A stretch of 64,000 bases of DNA, from the NCBI RefSeq assembly GCF_007741535.1, contig NZ_CP036525.1, positions 1,240,001 through 1,304,000 on the forward strand, written 5' to 3'. The notes below the pieces were generated by a model that saw only the letters and a program-made list of their open reading frames with translations, was not told the DNA's origin and did not search any database. Of this stretch, positions 6,801 through 46,657 are shown piece by piece (positions within the stretch are counted from its first letter, which is position 1; each line of letters opens with the position of its first letter). The position numbers were made by a program, and so were the translations under genes. The stretch is from Rubripirellula lacrimiformis. GTDB taxonomy: Bacteria; Planctomycetota; Planctomycetia; Pirellulales; Pirellulaceae.

Positions 6801-9800
6801 ACCATTCGGTTTCGATCCGGGTGAGTACAACCTGCTGCTTATCACCAATGCGTTGGGTGACGAGTTGGAGACGGATGAATCCAACAACACGCTTGTCCTT
6901 GGTCCCCTGTCTGTCGAGTCCCCACCTGTACCTGACCTCGTCATCACCAGTGTGACTGCACCTGCCTTTTCCGGTAGCGGCGAACAGATCACGGTTTCCT
7001 GGACCGGTGTGAACGCGGGTGCGGTTGATTTCGCGGAAACGACTTGGAGCGACCGTATCTATCTTTCGATTGATGCTGAATTTGGCAATGCGGATGACGT
7101 CGTGCTTGGCACGTTCGCACAGACGCGATCATTAACCGCTGGTGGCGGTAACTACGTCGATTCGCGAATGGTGACGCTGCCGTCGGGGATCGAAGGCGAC
7201 TATTTCATATACGTCGAAGTGGATGCGATCAACAATGTCCCGGAATTCATTTTTGAGGGGAACAACGTTTCCTCGGCAACGGTGCTTCCTGTCGCTCGAA
7301 ACTATCCAGACCTGGAGGCGACAACTTTCGTCGCTCCAGCGTCTGGTCGTCGCGGCGATCCACTGCAACTGTCATGGACCGTCACCAATGTCGGTGATGA
7401 CAGCAGTGTGTCTACTCGCTGGACTGACCGAGTCGTCTACTCTGGAGACGCGGTCTTGGGCAACGCTGACGATATCGTTCTTGCCGACGTCCAGCGTTTG
7501 ACATCGCTTGCCAAGACGACGTTTTATGACGTTGCGTTGACGCTTGACGAGCTACCTCTCGATTTGCCTCTCGGCAGCGGAACGCTGTTTCTAATTGTAA
7601 ATGCAGACGTGGCAGTCGACGAAAATTCGGCAACGACAAACAACGTCGGCTCAAGAACTTTCCTAGTCGAGGAGCGGGTCTTCATCGATTTGGCCGTCCA
7701 GCCAAACTTGATCGTCGCGCCCGCCACGATTGAAGCAGGCAGCCAGTTTGACCTTGTCTGGACCGTGAAAAATCTTGGCGTCACGCCGGCGGTCGGACCT
7801 TGGGAGGAACGAGTCTACCTGTCGGACAGTCCGACTGGTGGAGGCCGTCAACTGCTAGGCTCATTCCGATTTGAAAGCGACTTGGCCGCGAGTGCCGATA
7901 TCGTGAGACAACGCACCTTCACAATGCCGATCACGGGTCACGCAGGTGACGTTTACTTCGTTGTCGAAGTCGATGCCACGAATCGGGTCATCGAAAGCGA
8001 CGAGTCGAATCGATTCGTCAGCTCGACCCCGACCGAGGTGCCGTTGAAACTCTCCGTATCCACCAATACGAATCGCGTTACCGAGGGACAGACTGCCGCT
8101 CGACTAGTCGTTTCCCGAAACGGGAGTCCTTCCACTGCCTTGACGGTCAATCTTTCTGCGGATGTCGCTTCCCAGTTAGATCTTCCCACGCAAGTCACGA
8201 TTCCCGCTGGCCAGTACAGCGTTCGTGTTCCTGTTGCCGCGACACTCGATGGTGTTGTCGATGGAGACCAGTTGGTCGTTGTCTCCGCCAATGCGAGCGG
8301 GTACCCGTCGGCCACGATTCCTCTAACGGCGGTTGATGTCGATGTCAAAGAATTGACTCTCGAATTTGATTTCGAGTCGCTTGATGAGGCCCAAGTCGGA
8401 ACGGCCACCGTGACACACAACGGTTCCACGGCGACCGAACTGATTGTCGCCATCGGTGTCAGCCCACGCGTCGAACTGTCCGCCCCGATTCGCGTGACGA
8501 TTCCCGCTGGTCAAAACAGTGCATCTTTTGATGTCACCGCCGTCGATGATGACCAGCTTGAGAACAACGACACTGTGACGCTGTCACTCACCGCTCCCGG
8601 CTTCCGTGGGGCGATTGAATCGACGCTCATCAATCCGAGTGATGTTCCCTCAGTGACGCTGACGCTTCCGACGATGATCGCCGAAGGCACGCAAAGTGGT
8701 GCCGCCTTTGGTCAGGTCACACTTGATGCGGTCCAGCCACGCGATGTCAGTCTATTGCTGACGTCATCAGATTCATCCAGTTTGTTCGTTCTGCCCACGG
8801 TAACGATCCCGCGAGGCTCAAGGACCGCCAGCTTCGCTTTGTTTAGCAACGATGATGCGTTGCTCAACGGGACTCGCAACGTTGACGTGACCGCCGCCGC
8901 AATTCCTACCGGCGGTGGTCCGGCTTTGGAGGACATCTTGGCAGCCGGATCCATCGCCGTGACCGACAACGATGGTCCTACTTTGAGAGTGTCTTTCGAT
9001 CGCAACGTCGTAGCTGAATACGCGGCTACAACCGCGACTGTCTTCCGCAACACGGCAACCGATGATGCCTTGACTGTCACTCTTGCGACGGATGATCCCA
9101 GCGAGCTGCAAATTCCAGCGAGCGTCGTCATTCCCGCGGGCGCTGACTCAGTCTCGTTCACAGTTTCTGGAATTGCTGACCGCCTCGCCGATGGCGATCA
9201 ACGGGCGACGCTGACTGCTAACGCGGATGCATTTCAAGCTGGACTCTCGACGATTCTGGTTGCCGATGTCGATCGAGCCGACCTGCTCGCCGACGGATTG
9301 GTTACGCCGGCATCCGGCACGGTTGGTGAGAATGCGGCCGTCCAGTGGCGAGTTCTCAACGACGGCGTCGCTCCCGCACGCGGGCGATGGACCGAAAATG
9401 TCTTCTGGTCATCCGATCGAATCGTCGGCGATGACCAGCAAGTCGAAACCGTTGATTTCCAAGGTCCACTCGGTTTCGGCCAATCGTACAGCCGCTCGGC
9501 CATCGTCACGCTGCCAACGATGCCTGGTCAGTACTTTCTTATCGTCCAAGTGGACGCCAACGATTCGGTACGAGAAGTCCTTGAAACCAACAACTACGTT
9601 GTCTCCGCATCGGCGATCACCATCGAGGCACCGTACACGGCAACCGTATCATCAGGCATCGAAACCGCTTCCGTTGGCACTCCGGTATCGCTTGCTGGAA
9701 CCGCAACCAAGGTGGATGGATCACCAGCGGTCTCGGTCGACGTCGCCGTCAACATTTCTGTTCGCGGCACCAATCGGGTACTGCCAGCAACAACCGACGC

Positions 9801-12800
9801 AGACGGCAACTTCGCTGTGACCTTCGTCCCGCTACCTGGTGAAGGCGGGCAATACAGTGTCTCGGCCACCTATCCCGGCATCGCTCCCACCGATTCGCAG
9901 GATGCATTCCAACTGCTCGGACTCCAGCCCACCGAAGGTTTCGATTTCATCAACCTGACCTCCGGTGCGACCACGACGCAGACCATCACCGTTCGCAACC
10001 TCGCCGATGTCGATCTGTCGGGTCTAACCGTCGAAGCAATCGACATCGGAACTGGGCTCACTGTGACTCCGAGAATCGCCGATGGAGCCAACACGCTGCC
10101 CGCCTCCGAAAGTTTTCAACTCGAATACGACCTTGGCAGCGGCACCGCTACCTTCGGCGAAACAGGCTTCACACTGCGAATCAGTACAACCGAAGCACCG
10201 AACCTGGACATCCCCATCACCGTCGATGTCCTTGCTCCGACTGCTCGGCTCGTCGCCAGCGTCGAGACAATCGAATCAACTATGGTCGTTGGCGAGCAAA
10301 CCACCATCGAGTTTGAATTAGAAAATCGCGGCGGAGCTGACTCGGGACCGATCGAATTTCTGCTTCCCGACGGTGCCCCATGGCTGTCCGTCAGCTCTGG
10401 ACATCGAATCGCAAATATCTCGCCCGGAGGATTGACAACCGTCACACTGCTGCTCAGTCCGCAAATCGATTTGGAACTAACTCAATACAGCGGTTTGATT
10501 GTTGCTCGAACAGAAGGCGACGACTTGGCTGTTCAGTTTAGACTTCAAGCAACAGCCGAAACTGTTGGCGATCTAACGGTCAGAGTTGTCGATGAATTTA
10601 CCTTTTATAAAAATGATGCCCCGCTGGTCGATGGTGCCATCGTTCGCATTCTTGACCCCATTACTCGTGAACTTGTTGCAACGAATGCAGTTCCAGTCTC
10701 ATCTTTCAAGGCTAACGCAGAAGGTGAACAAAATGTTGCAGCTGCTGGTGACTTTTTCTTTCAAGCACTTGCACGCGGAAAATACGTTCTCGAAGTAAGT
10801 GCCGAAAATCATGAAACAAAGACGAGTTTAGTTGACATTCAGGCGGGTGACGGAAATGAGGTCGAAGTATTCATCCCAAGAAACTTTGTGGAATACAATT
10901 GGAGTGTAGAAGAAATTGGAGTTGAAGACCGAACGCGAATTTCGGTCGAGGCAGTGTTCGAGACAAATGTTCCAGCGCCAGTGGTTGTCGTTGAAAGCAA
11001 TATCGACCTTAATATGCTCGAATTCATCGGCGACAGTAAGACATTTGTAATTCAATACACCAATCACGGCTTAATTGATGCTATTGACATCCAACTTTTT
11101 TTCGATGAACACCCGGCATTGGAGATTAAACCACTCGTCGATTCGTTACCTGTATTGTCGGCAAAGTCTACGATATCAATCCCAGTTGTAATTACGCTTA
11201 GAAATCCTGCCGTTGAAACATCTAGCCTTCGCTCTGCACGTTTCGCAGAGGGTGAAGCAGTATCTCGACAGCAACTTTTCACTACTCCAGATACGCTATT
11301 CGATTTGGGAAATGTTCCCTGCGACCTGGAGGTCTATACAACGTACCGATACATTTGTGGCGACTACTTCTTGTTGAGTAGCATTCCAATCCCTGTGCTT
11401 GGAATCAGCTGTACGCCAAAAGGAGGAATCGGAACCGGGTCAGGCTCGGGAGGTGGGTTTGGTGGATTCGGACGTACCGAGATTGTCGATCTTGGGAACT
11501 TCGGAAGGGGCCGAAAACCTAGGGAAACTCTTGACCAGAATCCAATAGTCATCCGACGTGAAGACCCTGTTATTTCAGTTCCGTTCAATTGCGATGATTG
11601 CGTTTTGGGGACAGCGATAGCGGTGGGGAATTTACTTGCCCAACTATCTTCGTTACCAATAAGCGTTATCCCGGACTTGCAAGACTGCAGTCAAGGAATA
11701 GCTGGCTTTTTGACTGGTACTGGAAATCAAACAGGTATTGGAATAGGTAACAGTTGTTCTCAAGTTGGCTTAGGATTGGTCAAGACTAGACTTGATAAAG
11801 TTGGGAAGTCGATTCCATTGTTGAATCTATATCTCTTCGCCCAAGATCTCATAGGATTTATCAACGATGTTGCTGAAGCCTGTCCGGAGTTTCCTTGGGA
11901 GCCTCTAGATGAACTTCCTCCGATACCGGAACCCAACTTGGCTCGCTCCGCCGAAGGCGAGCAGGACTCAATAGCGGTTTCCATCAATGACCAGTTGAGC
12001 CGCTTAGATCGCATGGGGACACTTTTCTCACAGCTAGCAGCACCTGAAGTCTACTTCTACGGTAGTCAAGGGTTTGTTGCTAATCTGGATATTGCCGTCG
12101 CTCAGGACTGGACTTCATTGTTGCGATCAGTGAGTCTCGATGATTCAGGAGCGATTTCAGTTGTCAGCGAGTCAGAAAAGGATCAGCTGTACCGCTCCCC
12201 AAGTCGACCAGCGGGCTTAATTGACGAAGATATCGATCGTTTTGTTGATCGCCTAAATCGAACAGTGCTTTACTGGTCGGAAGGTATCTTCATAGCAAGT
12301 GACGTTCCGCTAGGAAACTCCGAAGATTTCATTGACCTTGAAGTCTGGTTGGGAGAAATGCAGATCGCCGAATCTGCACAAAGTGAAATTGCGAACGCTG
12401 GCGTAGCGGATGTCTATAGTGGGATTTCAGCAACTGGCAATGAACTGCTAAGCCTATTTTCCAGGTACTCAGCCGATGGCGTCTGTGCCGAAGTACGGAT
12501 TCAAATTTCGCAGGATGTCGTTCAAACCCGCCAAGCGTTTGACGCGACACTTGAGATATCGAACGAGACTGCTGAGGATCTTGCGAGCCTGCAGGCGTCG
12601 ATAGTGGTTTTGAATGGCGATGGAGAAGATGTTTCCGACTTGTTTGGAATTGAGTTGATTGAACAGACCGGCTTCGTTAATGCGAACGTCGGTGATACTC
12701 TAGCAGCCGGATCAGGAGGGCAATTTCAATGGAGATTGGTTCCGTCGGCCGATGCTGCCGTGGATGATTCGACTGAGTACTTTGTGACCGGTAATTTGGC

Positions 12801-15800
12801 TTACGAGGAACTTGGTGTCGCGGTCAGCAATAATTTTCAACCTACAAGAATCACAGTTGTTCCGCAGCCGCAGTTAGCAATCGACTATTTTTTTCAACGG
12901 GACGTAATCTCAGACGATCCCTTCACTGACGAAATCGAATCCTCGGAAACTTTTTCACTAGGAGTTCAGGTCAAGAACGACGGAGGTGGCGATGCACGAG
13001 ATTTGCGCATCGAATCCGCTCAACCAAAAATCATCGAAAACGAGAAAGGACTGCTCGTCGAATTTGAAATTGTTGGCACGAGCGTCAATGGTGAGCCTGC
13101 CGAGAGAACTTTAACTGCGGAATTTGGTGATCTGGCTTCCGGCTCGTTATCGACCGCTGAGTTTTTGCTTGAGTCGACTTTGCAAGGCTTGTTCACCGAA
13201 TACGAAGCAAGCTTCGAGCATGTTTCCGACTTCGGCAGCCAAGAACTCAGCCTCGTTAAGAGCGTTGAGATTCATGAATTGATCCGGTCGGTCAGTGCGA
13301 CGGCATCGGGTGTCGATGATGCGATTCCGGATTTCTTGGTCAATGACATCGCCGATCCACTCGATCTGCCGGACACGCTCTACCTTTCCGATGGAACAGT
13401 GTTGGATGTTTCGCTTGGTAGCGACGTTGTCGCCGCTTTGATGCCGACGCTTGCCGACTTGACGGTTGATGTTTCCGCTACGGTTTCAGCGGGTTGGAGT
13501 TTTCTCCGATTTGACGATCCGAGCGATGGCTTGTTCGATGTGATAGGTATCCGCCGATCTGATGGCACGATGCTCGATCCCAAGAATTTTTGGCAAACCG
13601 ATCGGACGTTCATTGGGTTGGGGCAGCGGCCAATCTACGAGAACAAGCTGCAATTGCTGGACTTCAACAGCACCGGTCAGTACGAACTGATCTATTCCAA
13701 CGGTGACGTCGAGGGTCCGTCGGTGGATTCGGTGTCCGGCGTCGACTCGGTGACTGACTCGGCGGTCAGCCAGTTGCAAATCGAGTTCAGCGAAACCATT
13801 GATGCTGGCAGCGTGGAGGTCAGTGATTTTCGCTTGCTTAAAAACGGACAATCGATCGACACGATCGCACTCTCTGTTTCAGCTGTCTCAGGAACTACTT
13901 TCACGTTGGACGGACTTGCACCATTGACGATGGATGACGCCGTCTACGAACTTGAAATCGCTCTCGACGGCATCACGGACCAAGTCGGCAATTCTGGCGA
14001 GGGTCTTTCGGCATTTACTTGGGTCAAAGGCGAAGCGGCACCAGCGGTCATCGAATTCGCTGGCGTGCCAGATCGCATTACGAACTCGACCATTGACACG
14101 ATTCGTCTCGAACTAACCGAACCGATTGAAATCGACACGCTCTCCGGCGCGACATCGTTGACACTGGACGGTGTGAATCTGCTGGATGCCACAACGACGT
14201 TTACCGAGATCGAAGCTGGCGTTTACGAAGTCGGAAATCTGCAAACTCTGATGAGCAGTGATGGAGAGTATCGGTTCTCGGTCGACGCGACTCAGTTGCT
14301 TGATTTGGATGGGCTGGCTGGAATCGGGTCACGGTCCGCGTCCTGGACCCTCGACCAAACGGCTCCCGCAGTCGTTGAAGTGATTCAGCCGTCAACCAAT
14401 CCCCGAAACACGCCCGTCCAACCAATCGACGTGCAGTTCAGCGAGATCATCGACTTGTCATCGCTTTCGGTAGATGACCTGCGACTTACCCGTGACGGCG
14501 GCAGTGAAAATCTTTTGGCCGACGAAACCAGGATCACGTTCGAGGATCTTGGCGACGGACTCTATCGAATCGGTGGCATTTCTTTCGTGCAAGGCTTCCT
14601 TGCCGATCCACAGGTGGCCAGCTTCACCGTCACCATTGATGGAGCCAGCATCAGTGACTTGGCAGGCAACGACGGAGTCGCCAGCGCATCGACAACCTGG
14701 ACATTCGATTTGGCGCCCCCCGAAGGCCCGACGAATGTTCGCTTGTCATCCGCCGACGCCGCAATTGACGGCGATACGGTCGGCTCCGAAAACGTCATCA
14801 TTAGCGGTGATCTCGCCGAGGCTGGATTGAGGATCAGGATCACTGACACAGTCACGAACACGCAGTACGGTCCGTTTGATATTCCAGGAACCCAATTTGC
14901 CCTGCCAATCGAGCTGACGTCCGCTGGGCGTCACGCCTTCACGATTCGCACCATCGATCCGGCGGGGAACACGACGGACACCGATATCAACGGACTATTT
15001 CTTCAACCAGCCCCGGTTGCGGTTTTGGAAACCGACGGTATTCCTGGTCGATTCACTCGCAGCGGGTTTGACTCAATCGATGTCACGTTCGTTGCACCTA
15101 TCATGGCCGACGGCATTTCAAGTGACCTGTTGACGATTCGGCGGAACGGAGGCGCAAACTTGGTTGATAGTGGCATCGCTACCTCACTATCGGAAGATGG
15201 TCGCACGCTAACGATTTCGGGGCTTACCGATGTCGTCAACTCCGAGGGCGTTTACACGCTTGCATTGGATCTCACCGCGCTGAACACTCTGACGGGAGTT
15301 CCAGGCAGTAGCCCGTTCACGGCAAGTTGGACTCTCGACACCCAGTCGCCGAGCAGTGTGGTCCAACCGCTTCAGCCCGACCAAACGATTCCGTCGTTTG
15401 TCCTTTCGGTCACCGGCAGCGATCCGCGACTTCCCGGCGGCCGTATCGGAAGCGGCATCGAAGCTTACGATATCTTCGTATCTACCGACGATGGACCGTA
15501 TGAGTTCTATCGAAGGCTCACCGGACGGACCTCGACTAACTTCGTGGGTGCCGAAAACACCTCCTACGGTTTCTACAGCGTCGCGGTTGATCGAGCTGGC
15601 AATACGGAAGCGGTACCCGCTGAACCGGATGCTACAACAAAAGTTGGGCGACTTGGTCCGGCCATCGAGCAGGCTCCTGTGCAAACGGGACTTGATTCCC
15701 GATCGAATGTTGACGTTGTGAGCTTTGAGTTTGATCGCGTGACCAACCTGCCATCACTCATCAACGACGGTCGGATTGTCGACGCAGTGACACTCACGAA

Positions 15801-16668
15801 TTTCGGCGTGGATGGAACCGAGAATGAGGTTCGTGATCTGTCCGCCGATCAATTCCGGTTCGAGACTGACCCAAAAACTGGAGTTGGAAAGCTGATCTGG
15901 TCGCTTGACAGCTTCACTGACAGCCGAAACACGTTGCCTGATGGATTCTATGCCTTCGAGTTCAACGCCGACTTCATGACCGACGTAGCGGGCTTTGCCC
16001 TCGACGGCGACACCAGCGGTTCCAGCGGCGGAACCTACCAGAAGACGTTCCACCGCCTTACCGGTGATGCCGACGGGAACGGAGTTGTCGACGCTTTAGA
16101 TCGCTCGATCGTGCTTGATTCGCTCGGTCGTTTTTCAACCGCCGACAATTTCGACGCCAATGCTGACCTGGACCGAGACGGCCGGATCAGTGTCCGAGAT
16201 CGCATCGCTGTGATCCGAGCGAATGGACGATCGATTACGCCACCCGTTGGGATGTCATTGTCAGCCACCCAATCCAGCGTTGCTAAACCAATCGCTTACG
16301 AGGACACCAATCGTGACGGTCGCGTTTCAGCACTCGACGCATTGATGGTCATCAATCAGCTGAGTCGGCTGTCTGCCTCCTCCGTTGCTGGTGCGGAAGG
16401 CGAAAGTGAATCGCTGGTATCAAGCCGCTATGACGTCAACGGCGACGGCACGGTGTCGGCGCTCGATGCGCTACAGGTTATCAACAAACTCGGCCGTCAA
16501 TCAGTTACGGGGAATGCAGAGTTCGAATCCCTCGCTCCCACTGAAACCACGACCACTACAATCGACTCGGTCTACACTTCAGCAACCGCCCAAATGGATG
16601 ACGGGGAAGACGACGATTTGTTGCAAGTATTGGCCGACGATCAGGCAAGACTCAGCTTGACCCAATGA
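862..16668 (+). CDS. Giant modular surface protein with dockerin-like C-terminus (5268 aa)
   Basis: Residues 1-29 carry a basic stretch followed by MEPLEKRNLLA, the planctomycete 'LEPRxLL'-type N-terminal motif of very large exported proteins. Modules in order: about 194-1137, six beta-rich units of roughly 150-170 residues (two rounds of an A-B-C set); about 1243-1512, two PPC-like beta domains; about 1513-2395, seven CARDB-like units recognisable by SW(T)...DRVYLS...GNADDV...EFLFEENN; about 2395-2802, four Calx-beta-like units; an eighth CARDB-like unit to about 2925; a central region (about 3240-4010) with cysteines and lower GC; about 4290-4950, Ig-like repeats of the SbsA type; about 5065-5215, four calcium loops such as DADGNGVVDALDR and DVNGDGTVSALDA, i.e. 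two dockerin-like pairs. The likely role is adhesion or cell-surface architecture, which is inference. The ATG at 862 is chosen because the LEPRxLL-like motif sits at its usual distance from it. Confidence 0.9.
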   Translation: MARKREVGKKQRRSVLRMEPLEKRNLLAAAITPCGPPTILELVSDQSVVRESVHPALASERLMSHSVPEGESVVTAVWTDPSGGDWSDRTKWQSGQLPGASDVVLVDLDPDATLFVSSGTNEVAEVQLSGEIHIGSGSLSAARIGVWAGQITLAGGTLSNTSVVSTSSEAIFSGVAGSLRNVILDGNGSISALGSDSIINVNGGLTLNGDLTITGTRTSSGENFRAGLSFGSNESLSGSGQVFLNTVNATDDVAALAFLELEGFSSNVETLSIGSDIEIGGDGGSIYTTQSSDLVAIGGAVTGSSSGDLFIRRATGPLAVTDLAGNVTLEGPFDNLQLTSVGETQLDLSQVTSLVGVSLTGDVLFGPGSDVNINGGLAIDGEVTLAGSDVPASLTFQSNEAINGTGAIRFSDENATSGSAINSLFLEGVSNLVETLTVRPGIAIGGGPGTIATTQSSDEIRIEGLVMGGDSGPLTIRRATGPLTVDDPSGNVSLVGRFDGLALTATEGTRVDLQNVTDLIGATINGDAVITPGSHVEVNGGLTINGELALAGSDVPATLTFGGSETVGGTGTLRFSNENAIDEISNNFVILEGVSSNVETLTFGEELRIIGDHGQIIPQSSSDTITIAGPVRGEGEGRLLLANLNGTLTIDDVLGGASLSGNIADLTVNATEGTTLDLSGVDNLARSAFNSDLTITATTSDSVIDVNGGLTLNGDLTITGTRTSSGENFRAGLSFGSNESLSGSGQVFLNTVNATDDVAALAFLELEGFSSNVETLSIGSDIEIGGDGGSIYTTQSSDLVAIGGAVTGSSSGDLFIRRATGPLAVTDLAGNVTLEGPFDNLQLTSVGETQLDLSQVTSLVGVSLTGDVLFGPGSDVNINGGLAIDGEVTLAGSDVPASLTFQSNEAINGTGAIRFSDENATSGSAINSLFLEGVSNLVETLTVRPGIAIGGGPGTIATTQSSDEIRIEGLVMGGDSGPLTIRRATGPLTVDDPSGNVSLVGRFDGLALTATEGTRVDLQNVTDLVGATINGDAVITPGSQVEVNGGLTINGELTLAGSDIPATLTFGGSETVGGTGTLRFSIENAVGETSNNIVILEGVSSNVETLTFGGGTTITGGSGAILPSQPSDQIAVEGKFIVGPGTDIELGRTVGQPAEIVVQISGNETATPRLRGSGQFSLPSVLRIESEEDFVPSPESLITVLQFDQLVGEIGEVLGDEIASFRTTPLAEGGSLVLVNVPHSLATRMFVVADGDNTSRQNAKPFVPAADELGTGLLRAGGLGILSPDGDARNDWWSFQASAGDELAISIDELTGTPASDITVLVHDDSGPVWDLTTQISGGDGHFSGFEVAVDGVYYFQLTSNRNEIATYTIRLDVARDFDIERDAVGSFDVLGQPTTLQTNVNGTTVGYKVAGKIDSRDSEIPDQDFFDIGSVRAERSIIAYLRTPSGSTLDPQMNIRDANGQVVSLRPNPNDPRIVRFDVPSDGNFLIDVSAVAGDGPEASYVVDVFVQPTDGLGFSDLSVGNLQISDDSPQSGQTLDVTWTVGNYGAVATADDEWTDKVVLSVNDRFGDADDVLLSEIQRIASLAINETYTQTASVQIPVGIAGAFYLFVETDAQDQVAEFLFEENNVTSLNIDVTVTPNADLRASEVVAPAMSFVGEPATVTWTVANVGSSSTGDGTPNGSVDSWLDRVFVSVDDVFGNADDVLIAEVTHDGVLNGGESYLGTWSGNVPEELDGRYQWFVRTDVNDAVYEFDDVAPNVAATDGVVIAPNRFADLVPTQIVSPGTAISGLAIPITWTTANRGFRDATGSWTNRFYLSADDTFSGDDVLVGSEAINQTIAIDSTANHSVDIVLPERIEGDFHLILVVNADGAEYEFLFSDNNEIATTAIMVMRRLEPDLVPEIVGSPTTIQLNLPFDFSYTVGNRGAGDTVGTWTDRVYLSSDSKIDQGDLLIKEIVSPSGSLPLTPLGATYAFIDSFTIPFGFDPGEYNLLLITNALGDELETDESNNTLVLGPLSVESPPVPDLVITSVTAPAFSGSGEQITVSWTGVNAGAVDFAETTWSDRIYLSIDAEFGNADDVVLGTFAQTRSLTAGGGNYVDSRMVTLPSGIEGDYFIYVEVDAINNVPEFIFEGNNVSSATVLPVARNYPDLEATTFVAPASGRRGDPLQLSWTVTNVGDDSSVSTRWTDRVVYSGDAVLGNADDIVLADVQRLTSLAKTTFYDVALTLDELPLDLPLGSGTLFLIVNADVAVDENSATTNNVGSRTFLVEERVFIDLAVQPNLIVAPATIEAGSQFDLVWTVKNLGVTPAVGPWEERVYLSDSPTGGGRQLLGSFRFESDLAASADIVRQRTFTMPITGHAGDVYFVVEVDATNRVIESDESNRFVSSTPTEVPLKLSVSTNTNRVTEGQTAARLVVSRNGSPSTALTVNLSADVASQLDLPTQVTIPAGQYSVRVPVAATLDGVVDGDQLVVVSANASGYPSATIPLTAVDVDVKELTLEFDFESLDEAQVGTATVTHNGSTATELIVAIGVSPRVELSAPIRVTIPAGQNSASFDVTAVDDDQLENNDTVTLSLTAPGFRGAIESTLINPSDVPSVTLTLPTMIAEGTQSGAAFGQVTLDAVQPRDVSLLLTSSDSSSLFVLPTVTIPRGSRTASFALFSNDDALLNGTRNVDVTAAAIPTGGGPALEDILAAGSIAVTDNDGPTLRVSFDRNVVAEYAATTATVFRNTATDDALTVTLATDDPSELQIPASVVIPAGADSVSFTVSGIADRLADGDQRATLTANADAFQAGLSTILVADVDRADLLADGLVTPASGTVGENAAVQWRVLNDGVAPARGRWTENVFWSSDRIVGDDQQVETVDFQGPLGFGQSYSRSAIVTLPTMPGQYFLIVQVDANDSVREVLETNNYVVSASAITIEAPYTATVSSGIETASVGTPVSLAGTATKVDGSPAVSVDVAVNISVRGTNRVLPATTDADGNFAVTFVPLPGEGGQYSVSATYPGIAPTDSQDAFQLLGLQPTEGFDFINLTSGATTTQTITVRNLADVDLSGLTVEAIDIGTGLTVTPRIADGANTLPASESFQLEYDLGSGTATFGETGFTLRISTTEAPNLDIPITVDVLAPTARLVASVETIESTMVVGEQTTIEFELENRGGADSGPIEFLLPDGAPWLSVSSGHRIANISPGGLTTVTLLLSPQIDLELTQYSGLIVARTEGDDLAVQFRLQATAETVGDLTVRVVDEFTFYKNDAPLVDGAIVRILDPITRELVATNAVPVSSFKANAEGEQNVAAAGDFFFQALARGKYVLEVSAENHETKTSLVDIQAGDGNEVEVFIPRNFVEYNWSVEEIGVEDRTRISVEAVFETNVPAPVVVVESNIDLNMLEFIGDSKTFVIQYTNHGLIDAIDIQLFFDEHPALEIKPLVDSLPVLSAKSTISIPVVITLRNPAVETSSLRSARFAEGEAVSRQQLFTTPDTLFDLGNVPCDLEVYTTYRYICGDYFLLSSIPIPVLGISCTPKGGIGTGSGSGGGFGGFGRTEIVDLGNFGRGRKPRETLDQNPIVIRREDPVISVPFNCDDCVLGTAIAVGNLLAQLSSLPISVIPDLQDCSQGIAGFLTGTGNQTGIGIGNSCSQVGLGLVKTRLDKVGKSIPLLNLYLFAQDLIGFINDVAEACPEFPWEPLDELPPIPEPNLARSAEGEQDSIAVSINDQLSRLDRMGTLFSQLAAPEVYFYGSQGFVANLDIAVAQDWTSLLRSVSLDDSGAISVVSESEKDQLYRSPSRPAGLIDEDIDRFVDRLNRTVLYWSEGIFIASDVPLGNSEDFIDLEVWLGEMQIAESAQSEIANAGVADVYSGISATGNELLSLFSRYSADGVCAEVRIQISQDVVQTRQAFDATLEISNETAEDLASLQASIVVLNGDGEDVSDLFGIELIEQTGFVNANVGDTLAAGSGGQFQWRLVPSADAAVDDSTEYFVTGNLAYEELGVAVSNNFQPTRITVVPQPQLAIDYFFQRDVISDDPFTDEIESSETFSLGVQVKNDGGGDARDLRIESAQPKIIENEKGLLVEFEIVGTSVNGEPAERTLTAEFGDLASGSLSTAEFLLESTLQGLFTEYEASFEHVSDFGSQELSLVKSVEIHELIRSVSATASGVDDAIPDFLVNDIADPLDLPDTLYLSDGTVLDVSLGSDVVAALMPTLADLTVDVSATVSAGWSFLRFDDPSDGLFDVIGIRRSDGTMLDPKNFWQTDRTFIGLGQRPIYENKLQLLDFNSTGQYELIYSNGDVEGPSVDSVSGVDSVTDSAVSQLQIEFSETIDAGSVEVSDFRLLKNGQSIDTIALSVSAVSGTTFTLDGLAPLTMDDAVYELEIALDGITDQVGNSGEGLSAFTWVKGEAAPAVIEFAGVPDRITNSTIDTIRLELTEPIEIDTLSGATSLTLDGVNLLDATTTFTEIEAGVYEVGNLQTLMSSDGEYRFSVDATQLLDLDGLAGIGSRSASWTLDQTAPAVVEVIQPSTNPRNTPVQPIDVQFSEIIDLSSLSVDDLRLTRDGGSENLLADETRITFEDLGDGLYRIGGISFVQGFLADPQVASFTVTIDGASISDLAGNDGVASASTTWTFDLAPPEGPTNVRLSSADAAIDGDTVGSENVIISGDLAEAGLRIRITDTVTNTQYGPFDIPGTQFALPIELTSAGRHAFTIRTIDPAGNTTDTDINGLFLQPAPVAVLETDGIPGRFTRSGFDSIDVTFVAPIMADGISSDLLTIRRNGGANLVDSGIATSLSEDGRTLTISGLTDVVNSEGVYTLALDLTALNTLTGVPGSSPFTASWTLDTQSPSSVVQPLQPDQTIPSFVLSVTGSDPRLPGGRIGSGIEAYDIFVSTDDGPYEFYRRLTGRTSTNFVGAENTSYGFYSVAVDRAGNTEAVPAEPDATTKVGRLGPAIEQAPVQTGLDSRSNVDVVSFEFDRVTNLPSLINDGRIVDAVTLTNFGVDGTENEVRDLSADQFRFETDPKTGVGKLIWSLDSFTDSRNTLPDGFYAFEFNADFMTDVAGFALDGDTSGSSGGTYQKTFHRLTGDADGNGVVDALDRSIVLDSLGRFSTADNFDANADLDRDGRISVRDRIAVIRANGRSITPPVGMSLSATQSSVAKPIAYEDTNRDGRVSALDALMVINQLSRLSASSVAGAEGESESLVSSRYDVNGDGTVSALDALQVINKLGRQSVTGNAEFESLAPTETTTTTIDSVYTSATAQMDDGEDDDLLQVLADDQARLSLTQ
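1460..2418 (+). repeat. Exact 959-bp direct repeat, copy 1 (inside giant gene)
   Basis: This segment is identical, by reading, to 2975-3933; the spacing is 1515 bp, exactly 505 codons, so the frame is kept. Similarity continues beyond 2418 with scattered differences up to about 2680. It encodes the A and B beta-rich units and the start of C. Identity including silent positions points to a recent duplication or gene conversion. Confidence 0.92.
2975..3933 (+). repeat. Exact 959-bp direct repeat, copy 2 (inside giant gene)
   Basis: Second copy of the segment at 1460-2418, offset 1515 bp. The first mismatch on the right is at 3934 (G against A at 2419, Val against Ile). From 3934 to about 4190 the copies remain similar with occasional changes, then diverge completely. 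Confidence 0.92.
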
Positions 16669-16731
16669 TCGTCAAGTAGTCTCACTATTCCCAATCACCG
16701 AAAACCCCACCTAGACGGGATACACATCACC

Positions 16732-17403
16732 ATGTTTTTACGACTGTTACTGATTCCACTGATGGCCTTAATGGCGACGGTTGCGTCCTCCGCCCCGGTG
16801 CGACTCTTGTTTCCCGATTCGACGTTTACACCGGGAAGCCAATTCTTTTTTTCGGTTGAACTGCCCACCGCGACGAATCTCGGCTCCTACCAAATCGATC
16901 TGCTGCTGTCGGGAAGTTCTGGTACAGCAGGTGTCGACTACTTTTTCGATTTGGCCGGAACCGACGCGGCAATGACGGGATACGTTTTCCCGTCTGATGG
17001 ACAATTCTTTGATACAGTGAACCTTGATTCGGCAATGTCGCAGCGTCTAACGTTGTCCGACATCAACTTCGACGGAATGGACGTCAATGGAGCAGGCGTG
17101 GTTTCTGGTACGAACGACGCTATCGCGAATATCGTCGTTTCGACACTGCCTACGTTCTCGGGCAGTTTGATGTTTTCCGTTGATGCAGACGCTTTGATCC
17201 TAGATACGCCAGACCTGACGCCGACTTCGATCAATGAATTTGCGACGATCCAAGCTGATACCGTTGCCGTGGCCCCGCAAACTGTCACTGCCGCCGCGGT
17301 CCCCGAACCCTCGGGCATCGCGATGCTGGCGGTTGCAGCGGTAGGCGTGCTAACTCTGCGTCGCAGGAGGAAGATTGCGTTTGGTGAGTCGAAACTGCGG
17401 TAA
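16732..17403 (+). CDS. PEP-CTERM domain protein (223 aa)
   Basis: A secreted protein: residues 1-20 form a signal peptide (MFLRLLLIPLMALMATVASS) and the C-terminus has VPEP, a hydrophobic segment and an RRRRK tail at about residues 189-217, the complete PEP-CTERM sorting signal recognised by exosortase. The middle part (about 25-185) is beta-rich and resembles cohesin-like or generic PEP-CTERM exported domains ('F-T-P-G-S-Q-F-F-F-S-V-E-L', 'Y-Q-I-D-L-L-L-S'). That is interesting beside a dockerin-bearing giant protein, but the cohesin resemblance is weak and should be treated as inference. It starts 63 bp after the giant gene on the same strand and may be co-transcribed. No exosortase gene is in the window. 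Confidence 0.85.
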   Translation: MFLRLLLIPLMALMATVASSAPVRLLFPDSTFTPGSQFFFSVELPTATNLGSYQIDLLLSGSSGTAGVDYFFDLAGTDAAMTGYVFPSDGQFFDTVNLDSAMSQRLTLSDINFDGMDVNGAGVVSGTNDAIANIVVSTLPTFSGSLMFSVDADALILDTPDLTPTSINEFATIQADTVAVAPQTVTAAAVPEPSGIAMLAVAAVGVLTLRRRRKIAFGESKLR

Positions 17404-42342: not shown

Positions 42343-43788
42343 TCACTTCGTCATTTGGGCGATCCATTCGCTGATCACCGCCAGCGTCTTGGGCGAAAAC
42401 GTCTGCTCGATCGTCGCATAGTCTCCTGTTGCGCCGGATCCGTCGGTTTCTTGGAACAAGTGATTCTGGTTGGGCAGACGCACAACTTTGAAGTTTTGGT
42501 TTCCACCTTTCGTCAGCGCCCCTTCGATTGCATCAAGATTCAGATCCGCTAGCACCTGCATGTCCTTCGTTCCGTTGACGGCAAGAACCGGACATTGGAC
42601 ACGCTGCAAATTCGTGGACGGGTCGTACCGAATGAAGTACTGCATCCATGGTGTGCTAAACATCGCCCCGAGCGGGACGTCCAACTTCTTTCGCAGATCT
42701 TCGTCCTGGATCTCTTCAACCACGGATTTGCAAGCGGCATTGATTGCGGTGGCGGTGACGTCATCGTCCGACTTCATCAGGTCCAGAACCGCGGCGATCA
42801 GTTGTTGATTCGCGGTCACCGCTTCGGGCGATTCACCAGCCGCCTGCAGCATTGCTGACTGTTGCGTCTGAATGATTCTGGCACCATCGACCCCCGGCCC
42901 AGCCAACAGAACGATGAACGCTAGGTCATCTCGCCCGGCCGCGACCATCGGTGCAATCAGTCCTCCCTCGCTGTGGCCGATCAGGCCGATCTTGGCCGCA
43001 TCGATCTTGGGGTCACGCTTCAGGAAATCCATGCCCGAGCGAACGTCTTCGGCGAAATCTTCGGACGTCGCTGTTGAAAAGTCGCCTGTGGACGCACCAA
43101 CTCCGCGATCATCGAATCGCAATACCGCGATACCCTGACGAGTCAAATGGTCGGCAATGACCAGGAATGGTCGATGCCCCAGCAATTCTTCATCACGGTT
43201 TTGAGGGCCTGACCCAGTGATCAAGATGGCGGCCGCAAAGGGACCGTCGCCACGTGGAATCGTCAACGTGCCAGCGAGCGAAAGATCGTGCTTCTTGTTT
43301 TCAAAGGTGACATCAGATGAATCGTATGGATACGGAGTCGTCGGAGTCTGTGGCCGGTTCTGCTTCACTTCGTAGTTCAAGTCCGTCTTTTCGAATTCCA
43401 AATCCGTGGTGACGGGACCCTGCTTGAATACTCCTTTCAACATCGACTTGTCCGCGCTTCGCTGTGCTTCGTACTCCAGCCCCAACGCTTTGTTGGAAAC
43501 CTTGTACTTGTCACCATCCCGCGAGAACTCTACCGGGATGCCCAACGCATTTTGCGTGTAGCTGTCCAATTTGGCGGACAGTGTTCCGTCGTTCTGGCGA
43601 TAGACCTTCAGTCCGAGTTCCAGTTTGGCACCCAGGTTCAGCGTGCCCTTCCATGTCTCGATATGTTCCGCAACCGGCGCGACCTGAGCGGTGTCGGTTT
43701 GTGCCAGGCCAATGGGGATTGCCAAGGTTGTCGCGATGACGATGGTCATCACAAACGACGTAGCGCGGGCGATCGATCGAAGGTGCAT
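42343..43788 (-). CDS. Exported alpha/beta hydrolase
   Basis: Residues 1-30 are a signal peptide (MHLRSIARATSFVMTIVIAT...). A beta-rich N-terminal part (about 40-160; LNLGAKLELGLKVYRQ, LDSYTQNALGIPVEFS) precedes the hydrolase domain with the oxyanion loop LITGSGPQNRDE, the nucleophile elbow GLIGHSEGGLIA, the acid region LAVNGTKDMQV and the catalytic His in NQNHLFQE. Family: S9/prolyl-oligopeptidase-like or esterase-type hydrolases with an N-terminal extension, common in planctomycetes; substrate unknown. The ATG at 43788 is preferred over the start of the open frame (43893) because it gives the signal peptide and has GGAGAAG just upstream as a ribosome binding site. Confidence 0.9.
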   Translation of the reverse strand: MHLRSIARATSFVMTIVIATTLAIPIGLAQTDTAQVAPVAEHIETWKGTLNLGAKLELGLKVYRQNDGTLSAKLDSYTQNALGIPVEFSRDGDKYKVSNKALGLEYEAQRSADKSMLKGVFKQGPVTTDLEFEKTDLNYEVKQNRPQTPTTPYPYDSSDVTFENKKHDLSLAGTLTIPRGDGPFAAAILITGSGPQNRDEELLGHRPFLVIADHLTRQGIAVLRFDDRGVGASTGDFSTATSEDFAEDVRSGMDFLKRDPKIDAAKIGLIGHSEGGLIAPMVAAGRDDLAFIVLLAGPGVDGARIIQTQQSAMLQAAGESPEAVTANQQLIAAVLDLMKSDDDVTATAINAACKSVVEEIQDEDLRKKLDVPLGAMFSTPWMQYFIRYDPSTNLQRVQCPVLAVNGTKDMQVLADLNLDAIEGALTKGGNQNFKVVRLPNQNHLFQETDGSGATGDYATIEQTFSPKTLAVISEWIAQMTK

Positions 43789-44242
43789 TTTCTTCTCCAG
43801 AGGAGCCGTTTGCGAAATCACCGCGCCGAATTCGTTGGTCACCGGTGGACCTTCCAATCTTGGATCGGTGGCAGCCGACGGGGAGACCGTCATGAACGAA
43901 GTTAATGGTTTCCCATCACGCGGGCAAGTTTTTGCGTCACCGTCGGGCCATCAGGTTCGACATCAAGCCCAGCGTCGAACCGTACCGTTGGTGCACCCCT
44001 TCGGTCCGCCGTGTACCGAAGCCGTTTGTCGTACCGCGTTCAGCGAGCGTCCAGCTGACGACAGCCTCGGAGAGACGAAAGCATCCTGCCGGTTGGCTCT
44101 GCCACTGGCATTGGGCGTTGGCTTCCCAGTGGGCTATTCCACTGGCATGCACGGCTCCTGGTCCGATCGGCAGCAATCGTTCCCGGGGGGCGTTGGGGGG
44201 CACCGCGGGCCGGCGATTGACAGTTTGCGACGGCTTGTTAGT
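43789..44242. other. Intergenic region, no gene seen
   Basis: Divergent spacer between the alpha/beta hydrolase gene (minus) and the riboswitch-controlled gene (plus). Both promoters should lie here. Plus-strand open frames through it have no recognisable motif. A 7-bp inverted repeat (CCACTGG at 44102-44108 with CCAGTGG at 44126-44132) is visible. Confidence 0.5.
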
Positions 44243-44463
44243 TTGTGGCCGTCCAAGGTGACTCGCGTGACTTCTGTCGGCGAGTGAACAGGGAACTCCG
44301 GTGAAATTCCGGGACGGTCCGGCCGCTGTGTGCTATCGGTGATTCTGAAATGGAATCCCATCCGTCGCTCCTTCTATCGAAGTGCCATTGCTTGCCCGAG
44401 GCGAGTGAGAAGGCTGTGAGCGACGGGAAAGATAGTGAGTCAGAAGACCTACCTTGGGCAAGA
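44243..44463 (+). promoter_or_regulatory. Cobalamin (B12) riboswitch
   Basis: The conserved core is present: a helix ACTCGC/GCGAGT around 44261-44286, then AGGGAA, the P5 stem-loop CTCCGGTGAAATTCCGGGA, and GGCCGCTGTG (about 44290-44330). At 44437-44454 there is GAGTCAGAAGACCTACCT, which fits the B12-box consensus rAGYCMGgAgaCCkGCcd with about two deviations. A 9-bp long-range stem (44362-44370 with 44418-44426) closes the variable domain, and CTTGCCC (44391-44397) can pair with GGGCAAG (44456-44462). It lies about 270 bp before the start of the PEP-CTERM gene on the same strand, so expression of that gene is probably repressed by cobalamin. The expression platform was not resolved; a T-run at about 44516-44520 follows a GC-rich stretch. 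Confidence 0.92.
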
Positions 44464-44731
44464 CGTTTTCGTGCCTTCTCGGATTGAGGCGAGCGTTGCA
44501 ACGCGTTGCGAGCGATTTTTCTTTGGGCCGTCCTGAGCCTCTTGGTGAGTTGTTTGGCTGTTCGCGTTGGTTGGTTTTTTACTTTCGTTCCGAGTGCCAA
44601 CGGCTTCGATCGCTGACGTTTCCTTTTCGCTCTGATTTCCTTCGATGTCTCGCATCCAGGATTGGGCTAGAGGTGCGCCCCGCGAGCTGGGCCTGCACAC
44701 TTGCGAACGGCAATTCCGAGGGTTCCCCCCG

Positions 44732-45610
44732 ATGCCTAAAAACACTTCTTCCCTAACCGCGTTGTTCCTGTTGTTTGCTTGGTCGACCGCGCAGGCCGGG
44801 ATCTATTCCGGACCCACCGATACTGCGAATTCGATCGACGGGGCCATCGCAAAAGATGATTCGCGAATCGTTCAGTGGGCCAATCTGATTGACGCTTCGC
44901 GGACGATGTTTGGACCACGCGGCAGTACGGCCATCAATCAAACCGGTGGCTTCAACAGCCTCGGTGATCTGGATGCCACTGAAATCAGCAATGATGATTC
45001 ACCCGGATTCTTGACCGTCATGTTTCCAACCGGGATTTCCGATGCCGCAGGCCATGATTTTGCCATTTTCGAAAATGGGTTCACGTTGGGCAGCGCTGGC
45101 GGCGTTGCCGGATTGTTCGCCGAATTTGCCTATGTCGACGTGTCGACCAACGGCACCGACTTCGCAAGGTTTTCGAGCGTTAGTTTGAATGCCGGAGCAT
45201 TGCCGGGCGGATTTGGTACCGCGTTTTCCGGGTTCGATGTAACGAACGTCCACAACTTGGCTGGTAAGCATGCGGCGGGCTTCGGTACCCCGTTTGATCT
45301 GGCCGAACTAGCCAGCGATCCGTTGGTCGCGGCCGGGCTGCTGGATCTAAACAACATCCAATACGTTCGCATGTTCGACATCCCTGGCAACGGTTCGTAC
45401 ACCGATAGTCTTGGCAATCCGATCTACGACAACTGGTTGACGTCGGGAAGTGGCGGATTCGATTTTCGACTGGGCGAAGGGTTGGGCGTCGGAGTCCTGA
45501 ACGTAGCCGCGGTGCCCGAGCCGAGCAGTTTGGCGGCGCTAGCAATTTTGGCCGGGACGACAGTGTACATCCGCAAACGACGACAAGTAACGTCGCGCGG
45601 GAACCGATGA
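44732..45610 (+). CDS. PEP-CTERM surface protein under a B12 riboswitch
   Basis: A 292-residue exported protein: signal peptide at residues 1-22 (PKNTSSLTALFLLFAWSTAQA) and a PEP-CTERM signal at the end (VAAVPEPSSLAALAILAGTT, then YIRKRRQ). The body contains ISDAAGHDFAIFENGF and FAEFAYVDVSTNGTDFARFS, a pattern I associate from memory with 'cell surface protein' genes found beside cobalamin riboswitches and B12 uptake loci in other phyla. The riboswitch immediately upstream supports a role in binding or acquiring cobalamin or a precursor at the surface; this is inference. No TonB receptor or Btu transporter is adjacent. The ATG at 44732 gives the signal peptide; an upstream in-frame ATG at 44645 is less likely. 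Confidence 0.85.
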   Translation: MPKNTSSLTALFLLFAWSTAQAGIYSGPTDTANSIDGAIAKDDSRIVQWANLIDASRTMFGPRGSTAINQTGGFNSLGDLDATEISNDDSPGFLTVMFPTGISDAAGHDFAIFENGFTLGSAGGVAGLFAEFAYVDVSTNGTDFARFSSVSLNAGALPGGFGTAFSGFDVTNVHNLAGKHAAGFGTPFDLAELASDPLVAAGLLDLNNIQYVRMFDIPGNGSYTDSLGNPIYDNWLTSGSGGFDFRLGEGLGVGVLNVAAVPEPSSLAALAILAGTTVYIRKRRQVTSRGNR

Positions 45611-45628: not shown

Positions 45629-46275
45629 GGTGATCCGGTCGTTTGGCCTCGTGGCCTGCGGGCTGTGCGATGGGGTGTGTGGACGCGCGGGGCGTTGCCC
45701 GCGCGGTTAAACGATTTTTGTTGGTGATGCGTTGTTTGGCCTCGTGGCCTGCGGGCTGTGCGATGGGGTGTGTGGACGCGCGGGGCGTTGCCCGCGCGGT
45801 TAAACGATTTTTGTTGGTGATGCGTTGTTTGGCCTCGTGGCCTGCGGGCTGTGCGATGGGGTGTGTGGACGCGCGGGGCGTTGCCCACGCGGTTAAACGA
45901 TTGTTGTTGGTGATGCGTTGTTTGGCCTCGTGGCCTGCGGGCTGTGCGATGGGGTGTGTGGACGCGCGGGGCGTTGCCCGCGCGGTTAAACGATTGTTGT
46001 TGGTGATGCGTTGTTTGGACTCGTGGCCTGCGGGCCTGGCGATGGGGTGTGTGGACGCGCGGGGCGTTGCCCGCGCGGTTAAACGATTTTTGTTGGTGAT
46101 GCGGTCGTGTGGGCTCGTGGCCTGCGGGCTGTGCGATGGGGTGTGTGGACGCGCGGGGCGTTGCCCTCGCGGTTAAACGATTGTTGTTGGTGATGCGGTC
46201 GTTTGGACTCGTGGCCTGCGGGCTGTGCGATGGGGTGTGTGGACGCGCGGGGCGTTGCCCGCGCGGTGAGACGAT
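45629..46275. repeat. Minisatellite: about 7 tandem copies of a 93-94 bp unit with a hairpin
   Basis: The marker CTCGTGG (ACTCGTGG in two copies) starts at 45648, 45741, 45834, 45927, 46020, 46114 and 46208: five units of 93 bp spacing or nearly so, then two of 94. Each copy contains CTGTGCGATGGGGTGTGTGG followed by the perfect hairpin CGCGCGGG-GCGTTG-CCCGCGCG (one-base changes in copies 3 and 6) and an A/T-richer stretch, TTAAACGATT. There are no unique spacers, so this is not CRISPR. It fills the whole gap between the PEP-CTERM gene and the ArsR gene. The 93-bp units leave open frames on both strands, but the translations are simply the repeat and are not called as genes. Confidence 0.95.
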
Positions 46276-46324
46276 GGCGCTGGCGTCATTGATGGGAAGG
46301 TGCCGGGGGACCTATCATGGGTGG

Positions 46325-46657
46325 ATGAGTACACCTGATGCACCCGACGAACTGCAATGCGCAGCCTACTTGAAGGCGCTAGCTGATCCGCTTCGGTTGC
46401 AGATTGTCCGCGGCCTGCAAGCGGGGCCGCTAAGCGTTTCCGATATCGCCCTGTTGTTGGAACAGGAGATCGGAACGGTATCGCACCACTTGCGTGTGTT
46501 GTTTCATGCCGGGGTGGTCACGACGCAGCGTGATGGAAAGTTCATCTACTATTCGTTGACGACCGGCCTATTGCCCGGCCGCGGATCGTCCCAGCGCAGT
46601 TCGCTAGACTTCGGCTGCTGTCGTCTCGAGTTGCAGCCAACAACGAAGTCCCCGTGA
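46325..46657 (+). CDS. ArsR/SmtB family transcriptional regulator
   Basis: A 110-residue winged-helix repressor type: ELQCAAYLKALADPLRLQIV, SVSDIALLLEQEIGTVSHHLRVLFHAGVV (recognition helix) and TTQRDGKFIYYSLT (wing). One cysteine is near the N-terminus and a Cys-Cys pair near the C-terminus; whether these bind metal is not clear since the classical CVC or H/D motifs in the usual places are not seen. The ATG at 46325 is chosen because the open frame before it is minisatellite sequence. The last minisatellite unit ends about 50 bp upstream, so the repeats form or adjoin its promoter region. Confidence 0.88.
   Translation: MSTPDAPDELQCAAYLKALADPLRLQIVRGLQAGPLSVSDIALLLEQEIGTVSHHLRVLFHAGVVTTQRDGKFIYYSLTTGLLPGRGSSQRSSLDFGCCRLELQPTTKSP

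Follow-up and report, generated by a model that had tools for sequence, protein, structure and literature searches.

A cobalamin riboswitch and a candidate BtuH-like, PEP-CTERM-tailed surface protein in Rubripirellula lacrimiformis

The protein P0001, encoded behind a cobalamin riboswitch in the 64,000-nt stretch of Rubripirellula lacrimiformis DNA analysed here (the window), probably serves at the cell surface as a BtuH-like cobamide-capture protein, produced under B12 scarcity. We favour this reading because the pairing with the riboswitch is conserved and because the domain family of P0001, which we call P1, shares operons and polypeptides with DUF4465, a published B12-binding family. The initial annotation had proposed a surface cobalamin-capture protein anchored by the PEP-CTERM system; this is supported by the riboswitch pairing at 16 of 16 loci, by operons and fusions with DUF4465, by the TonB receptor that follows P1 at 27 of 29 Flavobacteriales loci, and by profile matches to BtuH-domain proteins in the PDB. 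In what follows, L-numbers denote fetched loci.

Results

A complete cobalamin riboswitch precedes a PEP-CTERM protein

When the whole window was scanned with cmscan, a single Rfam match exceeded its gathering score. This is a cobalamin riboswitch aptamer (RF00174) at 44239-44470 on the forward strand, which spans model positions 1-189 of 189, scores 72.3 bits against a gathering score of 31.5 (E 6.8e-16), and includes the B12 box GAGTCAGAAGACCTACCT, recognised by eye, at 44437-44454. The riboswitch core and B12 box described in the initial annotation are therefore borne out by a significant, full-length match. Between the end of the aptamer and the start codon of P0001 lies a leader of 261 nt (44471-44731, forward strand). 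A terminator scan of this leader found no terminator-like site, the fold of 44239-44760 was not better than those of shuffled sequences (z -0.03), and an inverted-repeat search returned short repeats only; no expression platform was thus found by terminator scan, folding or repeats.

P0001, a BtuH-like candidate cobamide-capture protein of 292 amino acids, is encoded at 44732-45610 on the forward strand, an assignment based on its translation, the starts of its homologues, the riboswitch pairing and the linkage to DUF4465. An alternative in-frame start at 44645 would yield 321 amino acids; we prefer 44732 because close homologues align from the methionine at this position, immediately upstream of which stands GAGGG. 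An export signal-like N-terminal stretch (residues 1-22; 44732-44797, forward) was recognised by eye, and residues 261-285 (45512-45586, forward) form a PEP-CTERM sorting tail, with a C-terminal VPEP motif, a hydrophobic stretch and a basic end. The tail passes NCBIfam TIGR02595 (23.8 bits, cut-off 16) and falls slightly under Pfam PF07589 (18.8 bits against 20.7), and tails of this type are common to other ORFs of the same genome. The length of the protein, its signal peptide and its complete PEP-CTERM were thus read correctly at the outset, as was the lack of any B12 gene adjoining P0001; the nearest long upstream ORF (42343-43893) lies on the opposite strand. Apart from the sorting tail, no functional Pfam or NCBIfam model was matched above its cut-off by the P1 family. 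The motif DFAIFENGF (residues 109-117; 45056-45082, forward) was assigned by conservation: among 93 P1-domain segments, N115 is conserved in 99% and F117 in 86%.

Directly 3' of P0001 lies a tandem array (45629-46275) of a 93-bp unit in 6.9 copies with 95% matches, inside which an ORF with an ArsR-type HTH domain starts (46109-46657). Elsewhere in the window (862-17403), a 5268-aa ORF (862-16668) is followed by a 223-aa ORF (16732-17403) whose PEP-CTERM-like tail is its only similarity to P0001.

The pairing of riboswitch and P1 is conserved

A scan of genome contigs identified six relatives, five from planctomycetes and one from a Flavobacteriales bacterium, each with a same-strand RF00174 upstream. 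Among 199 genomes of the organism's own taxonomic family, 52 match the P1 search at E<=0.001, the match in several being confined to the PEP-CTERM tail; each of the 13 stand-alone homologues that were fetched (L017-L029) has RF00174 upstream on the same strand. Once L017, L021 and L022 had been removed as duplicates of L010, L015 and L012, and with the P0001 locus counted, the distinct same-family loci with this arrangement came to 16 of 16, the opposite of the consistent absence from relatives that had been named beforehand as counter-evidence. Two of the 16 look broken in assembly, the match in L024 holding one TAG and that in L028 lying in two frames. The pairing exceeds chance, there being two RF00174 matches in the 8.54-Mb genome and the pairing recurring in relatives. 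Viral contigs scanned with the close-relative profile (A1, seven sequences) contained no relative.

P1 shares operons and polypeptides with prepilin-like and DUF4465 genes

Using profiles built from the same-family loci for gene calls, we found P1, a prepilin gene and a DUF4465 gene together in one riboswitch operon at 7 of the 16 loci (L010/L080, L012/L085, L013, L086, L088, L090 and L091); at nine, including that of P0001, P1 alone of this trio was found behind the riboswitch. Many genomes of the family, including 9 of 13 searched congeners, instead encode a P1 domain in an open frame of roughly 1000-2600 aa, the layout in the congeners being riboswitch, prepilin gene, and then a giant protein that joins the P1 domain to DUF4465 domains. 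The six giants fetched at length (L093-L098, with L098 divided over two frames) combine one P1 with two or three DUF4465 domains and stand after a prepilin gene; in L093, Pfam identified three DUF4465 stretches and a dockerin. RF00174 lies ahead of the prepilin in all seven giant-bearing genomes scanned, two of which were negative in a short flank and positive after extension, and a prepilin-profile match accompanies the giant at 16 of 16 loci. While the C-terminal sorting part differs among P1 relatives (PEP-CTERM, type IX tail or dockerin), the domain itself is retained. The planctomycete loci read have a DUF1559 prepilin-like gene alongside P1 or the giant, and no TonB-receptor match next to it.

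The genome itself, a single contig of 8,542,491 bases, holds two RF00174 matches in total, the second 85,879 bases beyond the first. Behind the second lie a DUF1559 prepilin-like gene with an N-terminal methylation motif and then, at 1371642-1372652 of the contig, a DUF4465 gene with a PEP-CTERM tail. P0001, initially described as a lone PEP-CTERM protein, is therefore lone in position but not otherwise, since these genes lie behind a second riboswitch at a distance of about 86 kb. A planctomycete DUF4465 protein is among the published binders of this B12-binding family (PMC13398666), in which the Tyr of an NTPAY/GTPAYF loop is described as B12-binding and 97% conserved (PMC13398666); the DUF4465 protein of this genome retains NTPKY.

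On a bolder reading, planctomycete cobalamin riboswitches may often control DUF1559 prepilins. RF00174 is present in 168 of the 199 family genomes, and among the 30 riboswitch loci fetched, which are the best-scoring ones and no random sample, 20 have a same-strand prepilin-profile match downstream within the flank. All three of those tested by Pfam (L050, L052 and L061) carry DUF1559 with the methylation motif. At the rate of this genome only (46 PF07596 rows, about 45 genes), the chance of a PF07596 gene in a random 1.5-kb same-strand flank is about 0.4%. The gene after the prepilin in L064 starts like CobQ/CobB-type enzymes (PF01656). At the other ten loci, Pfam identified DUF6580 (L057), a ribonucleotide reductase (L059) and a histidine-phosphatase protein (L069) behind the riboswitch; by eye, the genes of L056 and L058 are DUF6580-like and those of L070, L076, L078 and L079 ribonucleotide-reductase-like, and the sequence of L063 stops 431 bases beyond the aptamer. 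A DUF6580 gene also lies near a cobalamin riboswitch in L012 (8766-9296, Pfam). As a guess, DUF6580 may be a candidate inner-membrane B12 transporter.

P1 in Flavobacteriales and the wider planctomycete phylum

In the order of the Flavobacteriales relative, P1 was found in 40 of 46 genomes. At the 29 loci fetched, the gene before P1 is a DUF4465 gene in 18 and a propeller gene in 10, the gene directly after it encodes a TonB receptor in 27, and both sides occur together in 26. Gene names at these loci were given by phmmer with the L014 proteins and by our own profiles; Pfam was run on L014, and the receptors of L101 and L109 were checked further with NCBIfam. RF00174 lies within the 1.5-kb flank at 8 of 20 Flavobacteriales loci and at 6 of 8 in a further set, which together take in every fetched locus but L127.

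P1 is uncommon across the planctomycete phylum as a whole, where 27 of 392 genomes, with this one counted, have it at 1e-10, and it mostly stands behind RF00174. RF00174 lies upstream of P1 in 14 of 20 phylum-wide loci and in one of six others (L151, 37.7 bits), and longer flanks yielded two more positive loci, L158 (for L136) and L159 (for L135). Loci L138, L139 and L145 lie at contig ends, and L133 was taken with its flank as originally fetched. In five distant homologues (L150 and L152-L155), no RF00174 match above the gathering score was found in the fetched stretch. L158 (4568-10747) presents the order riboswitch, DUF4465, P1, prepilin (called from the methylation motif only), BtuF-type binding protein, ABC ATPase (BtuD) and FecCD permease (BtuC), with no TonB-receptor match within the 12 kb read. 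Together, the receptors following P1 in 27 of 29 Flavobacteriales loci and the BtuFCD operon of L158 show the co-occurrence with TonB/Btu genes that the initial annotation suggested looking for in related genomes. In L147, two cobalamin riboswitches are divergently oriented at 893-1268, one of them ahead of a P1 homologue.

Diverse P1 profiles point weakly to the BtuH domain

Compared with PDB sequences, P0001 alone gave a chance-level match only, and the A1 profile gave no BtuH match, and indeed none at all. A profile of 20 diverse members (A2), run against 177,635 PDB sequences at E<=10, matched only 8blw_B (2.5e-4) and 7biz_A (0.045). With 58 members (A4), 8blw_B again came top (0.0061); five of the six other matches lie over the C-terminal part, where type IX secretion tails occur in some A4 members, and the sixth is unrelated. 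The core-only profile A5 had 8blw_B as its sole match (E 0.0035). Of these chains, 8blw_B is BtuG1, which carries a BtuH domain as its C-terminal extension, and 7biz_A is BtuH2, solved with B12 (PMC10404256, PMC8941943); B12 binding by BtuH has been reported as shown (PMC8941943). The similarity is weak and spans about the first half of the domain. Of the two checks on the protein suggested at the outset, the HMM search with diverse profiles ranked BtuH-domain proteins first, with weak scores, and the structure prediction of P0001 from the seven sequences of A1 gave a low-confidence model with a pLDDT of 36.9.

The A2 alignment pairs ENGF of the conserved motif with GNAF in 7biz_A (chain 298-301) and with GNAS in 8blw_B. 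According to its published description, the 7BIZ construct comprises residues 103-593 and a tag; the chain is 501 residues long. If the numbering is shifted by 100, the N and F of the motif would fall on Asn399 and Phe401 of BtuH2 and the reported Gln333 on a glutamine, which is suggestive rather than proof. BtuH2 Asn399 and Phe401 are reported to contact the phosphate and lower base of B12, so that the motif would align with a B12-contacting loop, with residue numbers by inference; the Phe401 position is matched in 7biz_A and is a serine in 8blw_B.

Other family assignments were also considered. P0001 was rejected as a member of DUF4465 (PF14717), with no Pfam match and an hhalign probability of 3.4, and as a propeller, again with no Pfam match. 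Against the LIC_13355 family (NF033170) it scores 19.8 bits, where the cut-off is 120, and all seven A1 members match this family weakly (best 3.1e-5). Leptospira LIC_13355 is described as a laminin- and plasminogen-binding lipoprotein, an adhesin (PMC11891782), and the B12 terms looked for in the available text of that paper were not present.

B12 supply in this genome

CbiC is a marker of de novo corrin synthesis. It was found neither in this genome nor in 197 of the 199 searched family genomes, and the organism therefore probably depends on B12 from outside. Of two B12-binding-domain matches in the genome, one passes the cut-off and lies in a 1373-aa frame, which we take from its size to be methionine synthase. 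Both FecCD matches were rejected as BtuC; ABC-3 fits both far better, and hence no BtuC was found in the genome. Three TonB receptors pass PF00593, none of them near either riboswitch and none reaching the TIGR01779 cut-off (599.7). Since the receptor adjoining P1 in L014 also falls below that cut-off (109.2), TIGR01779 cannot separate BtuB among the receptors of this genome.

Discussion

A working model for P0001 and its alternatives

We suggest that at low cobamide the riboswitch would be unbound and P0001 made, bound cobamide lowering its expression as in other B12 riboswitches. P0001 would then be exported and anchored by its PEP-CTERM tail at the surface, where it might hold cobamide partly via the loop with N115 and F117, act with the DUF1559 prepilin-like and DUF4465 PEP-CTERM partners of the second riboswitch to gather B12, and hand the captured cobamide over to them. 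More tentatively, riboswitch-run DUF1559 prepilin-like proteins and BtuH-like or DUF4465 surface binders, be they separate PEP-CTERM proteins or large fusions, could replace BtuB in Planctomycetota in a pilus- or pseudopilus-coupled B12 import, with P0001 as the capture part; we regard this as possible though doubtful.

P0001 might also belong to a B12 acquisition system without itself binding B12, in a docking or structural role beside the prepilin, the DUF4465 protein or the Flavobacteriales TonB receptor. P1 is nearly always linked to DUF4465, the better binder candidate, and is without a family model of its own that would indicate function; moreover, the B12-locus proteins BtuL and BtuK2 of B. 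theta are reported not to have bound cobalamin (PMC12751083). We nevertheless consider such a role unlikely, because at 9 of 16 loci neither the prepilin nor the DUF4465 gene was found with P1 behind the riboswitch, and because the PDB chains that match P1 best belong to B12-binding BtuH-domain proteins and align at the B12-touching loop.

In our view, P0001 is very unlikely to be just a PEP-CTERM protein of biofilm or adhesion whose induction at low B12 is incidental. B12 riboswitches can precede genes other than those of synthesis and transport. The distant similarity to the laminin- and plasminogen-binding lipoprotein LIC_13355 (PMC11891782) would fit such a protein, but the DUF4465 fusions and operons, the adjacency of TonB receptors and the one BtuFCD operon would not, and the sorting tail varies among relatives while the P1 domain persists. 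Least credible of all is a decayed or unlinked riboswitch without control of P0001, as the 261-nt leader without recognisable terminator or significant fold might suggest, given that the aptamer is complete and the arrangement conserved in 16 of 16 same-family loci.

Novelty and significance

Among the open-licence PMC papers searched, we found no description of the riboswitch-P1-prepilin system of which P0001 would probably be the capture protein, and nothing joining DUF1559 and cobalamin. The one paper found with both a cobalamin riboswitch and PEP-CTERM has, in its available text, cobalamin riboswitches flanking synthesis genes and c-di-GMP riboswitches preceding PEP-CTERM genes.

Most descriptions of surface B12-capture proteins concern gut Bacteroides, in which such proteins supply BtuB. 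The protein found here looks related but differs in its anchor, has a prepilin-like partner and stands under a B12 riboswitch, in bacteria that probably need B12 from outside. The analysis allows a function to be proposed for the P1 family and a role for some members of DUF1559, and it makes planctomycete B12 import a directly testable question.

Comparison with known systems

Like P0001, BtuH2 (7BIZ) and the H domain of BtuG1 (8BLW) of Bacteroides thetaiotaomicron belong to riboswitch-linked surface proteins of B12 loci, and the conserved Asn of the motif is common to the P1 family and to both chains, 7biz_A and 8blw_B. BtuH in Bacteroides is a lipoprotein or part of a fusion, whereas P0001 carries a PEP-CTERM tail and its cobamide binding is predicted. 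The linkage of BtuH to btuB is not seen at P0001, which has no adjoining TonB-receptor gene; a comparable linkage is seen in 27 of 29 Flavobacteriales P1 loci. The BtuB-BtuG TonB loci of Bacteroides and Flavobacteriales find their counterpart in the 26 of 29 loci where P1 homologues lie between a DUF4465 or propeller gene and a TonB receptor, while the planctomycete loci read have a DUF1559 prepilin-like gene and no TonB-receptor match beside it. Finally, DUF4465/BtuJ (PF14717) is the partner of P1 in operons and polypeptides and in this genome is PEP-CTERM-tailed like P0001, although there is no detectable kinship between the two; the NTPKY of the DUF4465 protein of this genome resembles the published NTPAY/GTPAYF loop (PMC13398666).
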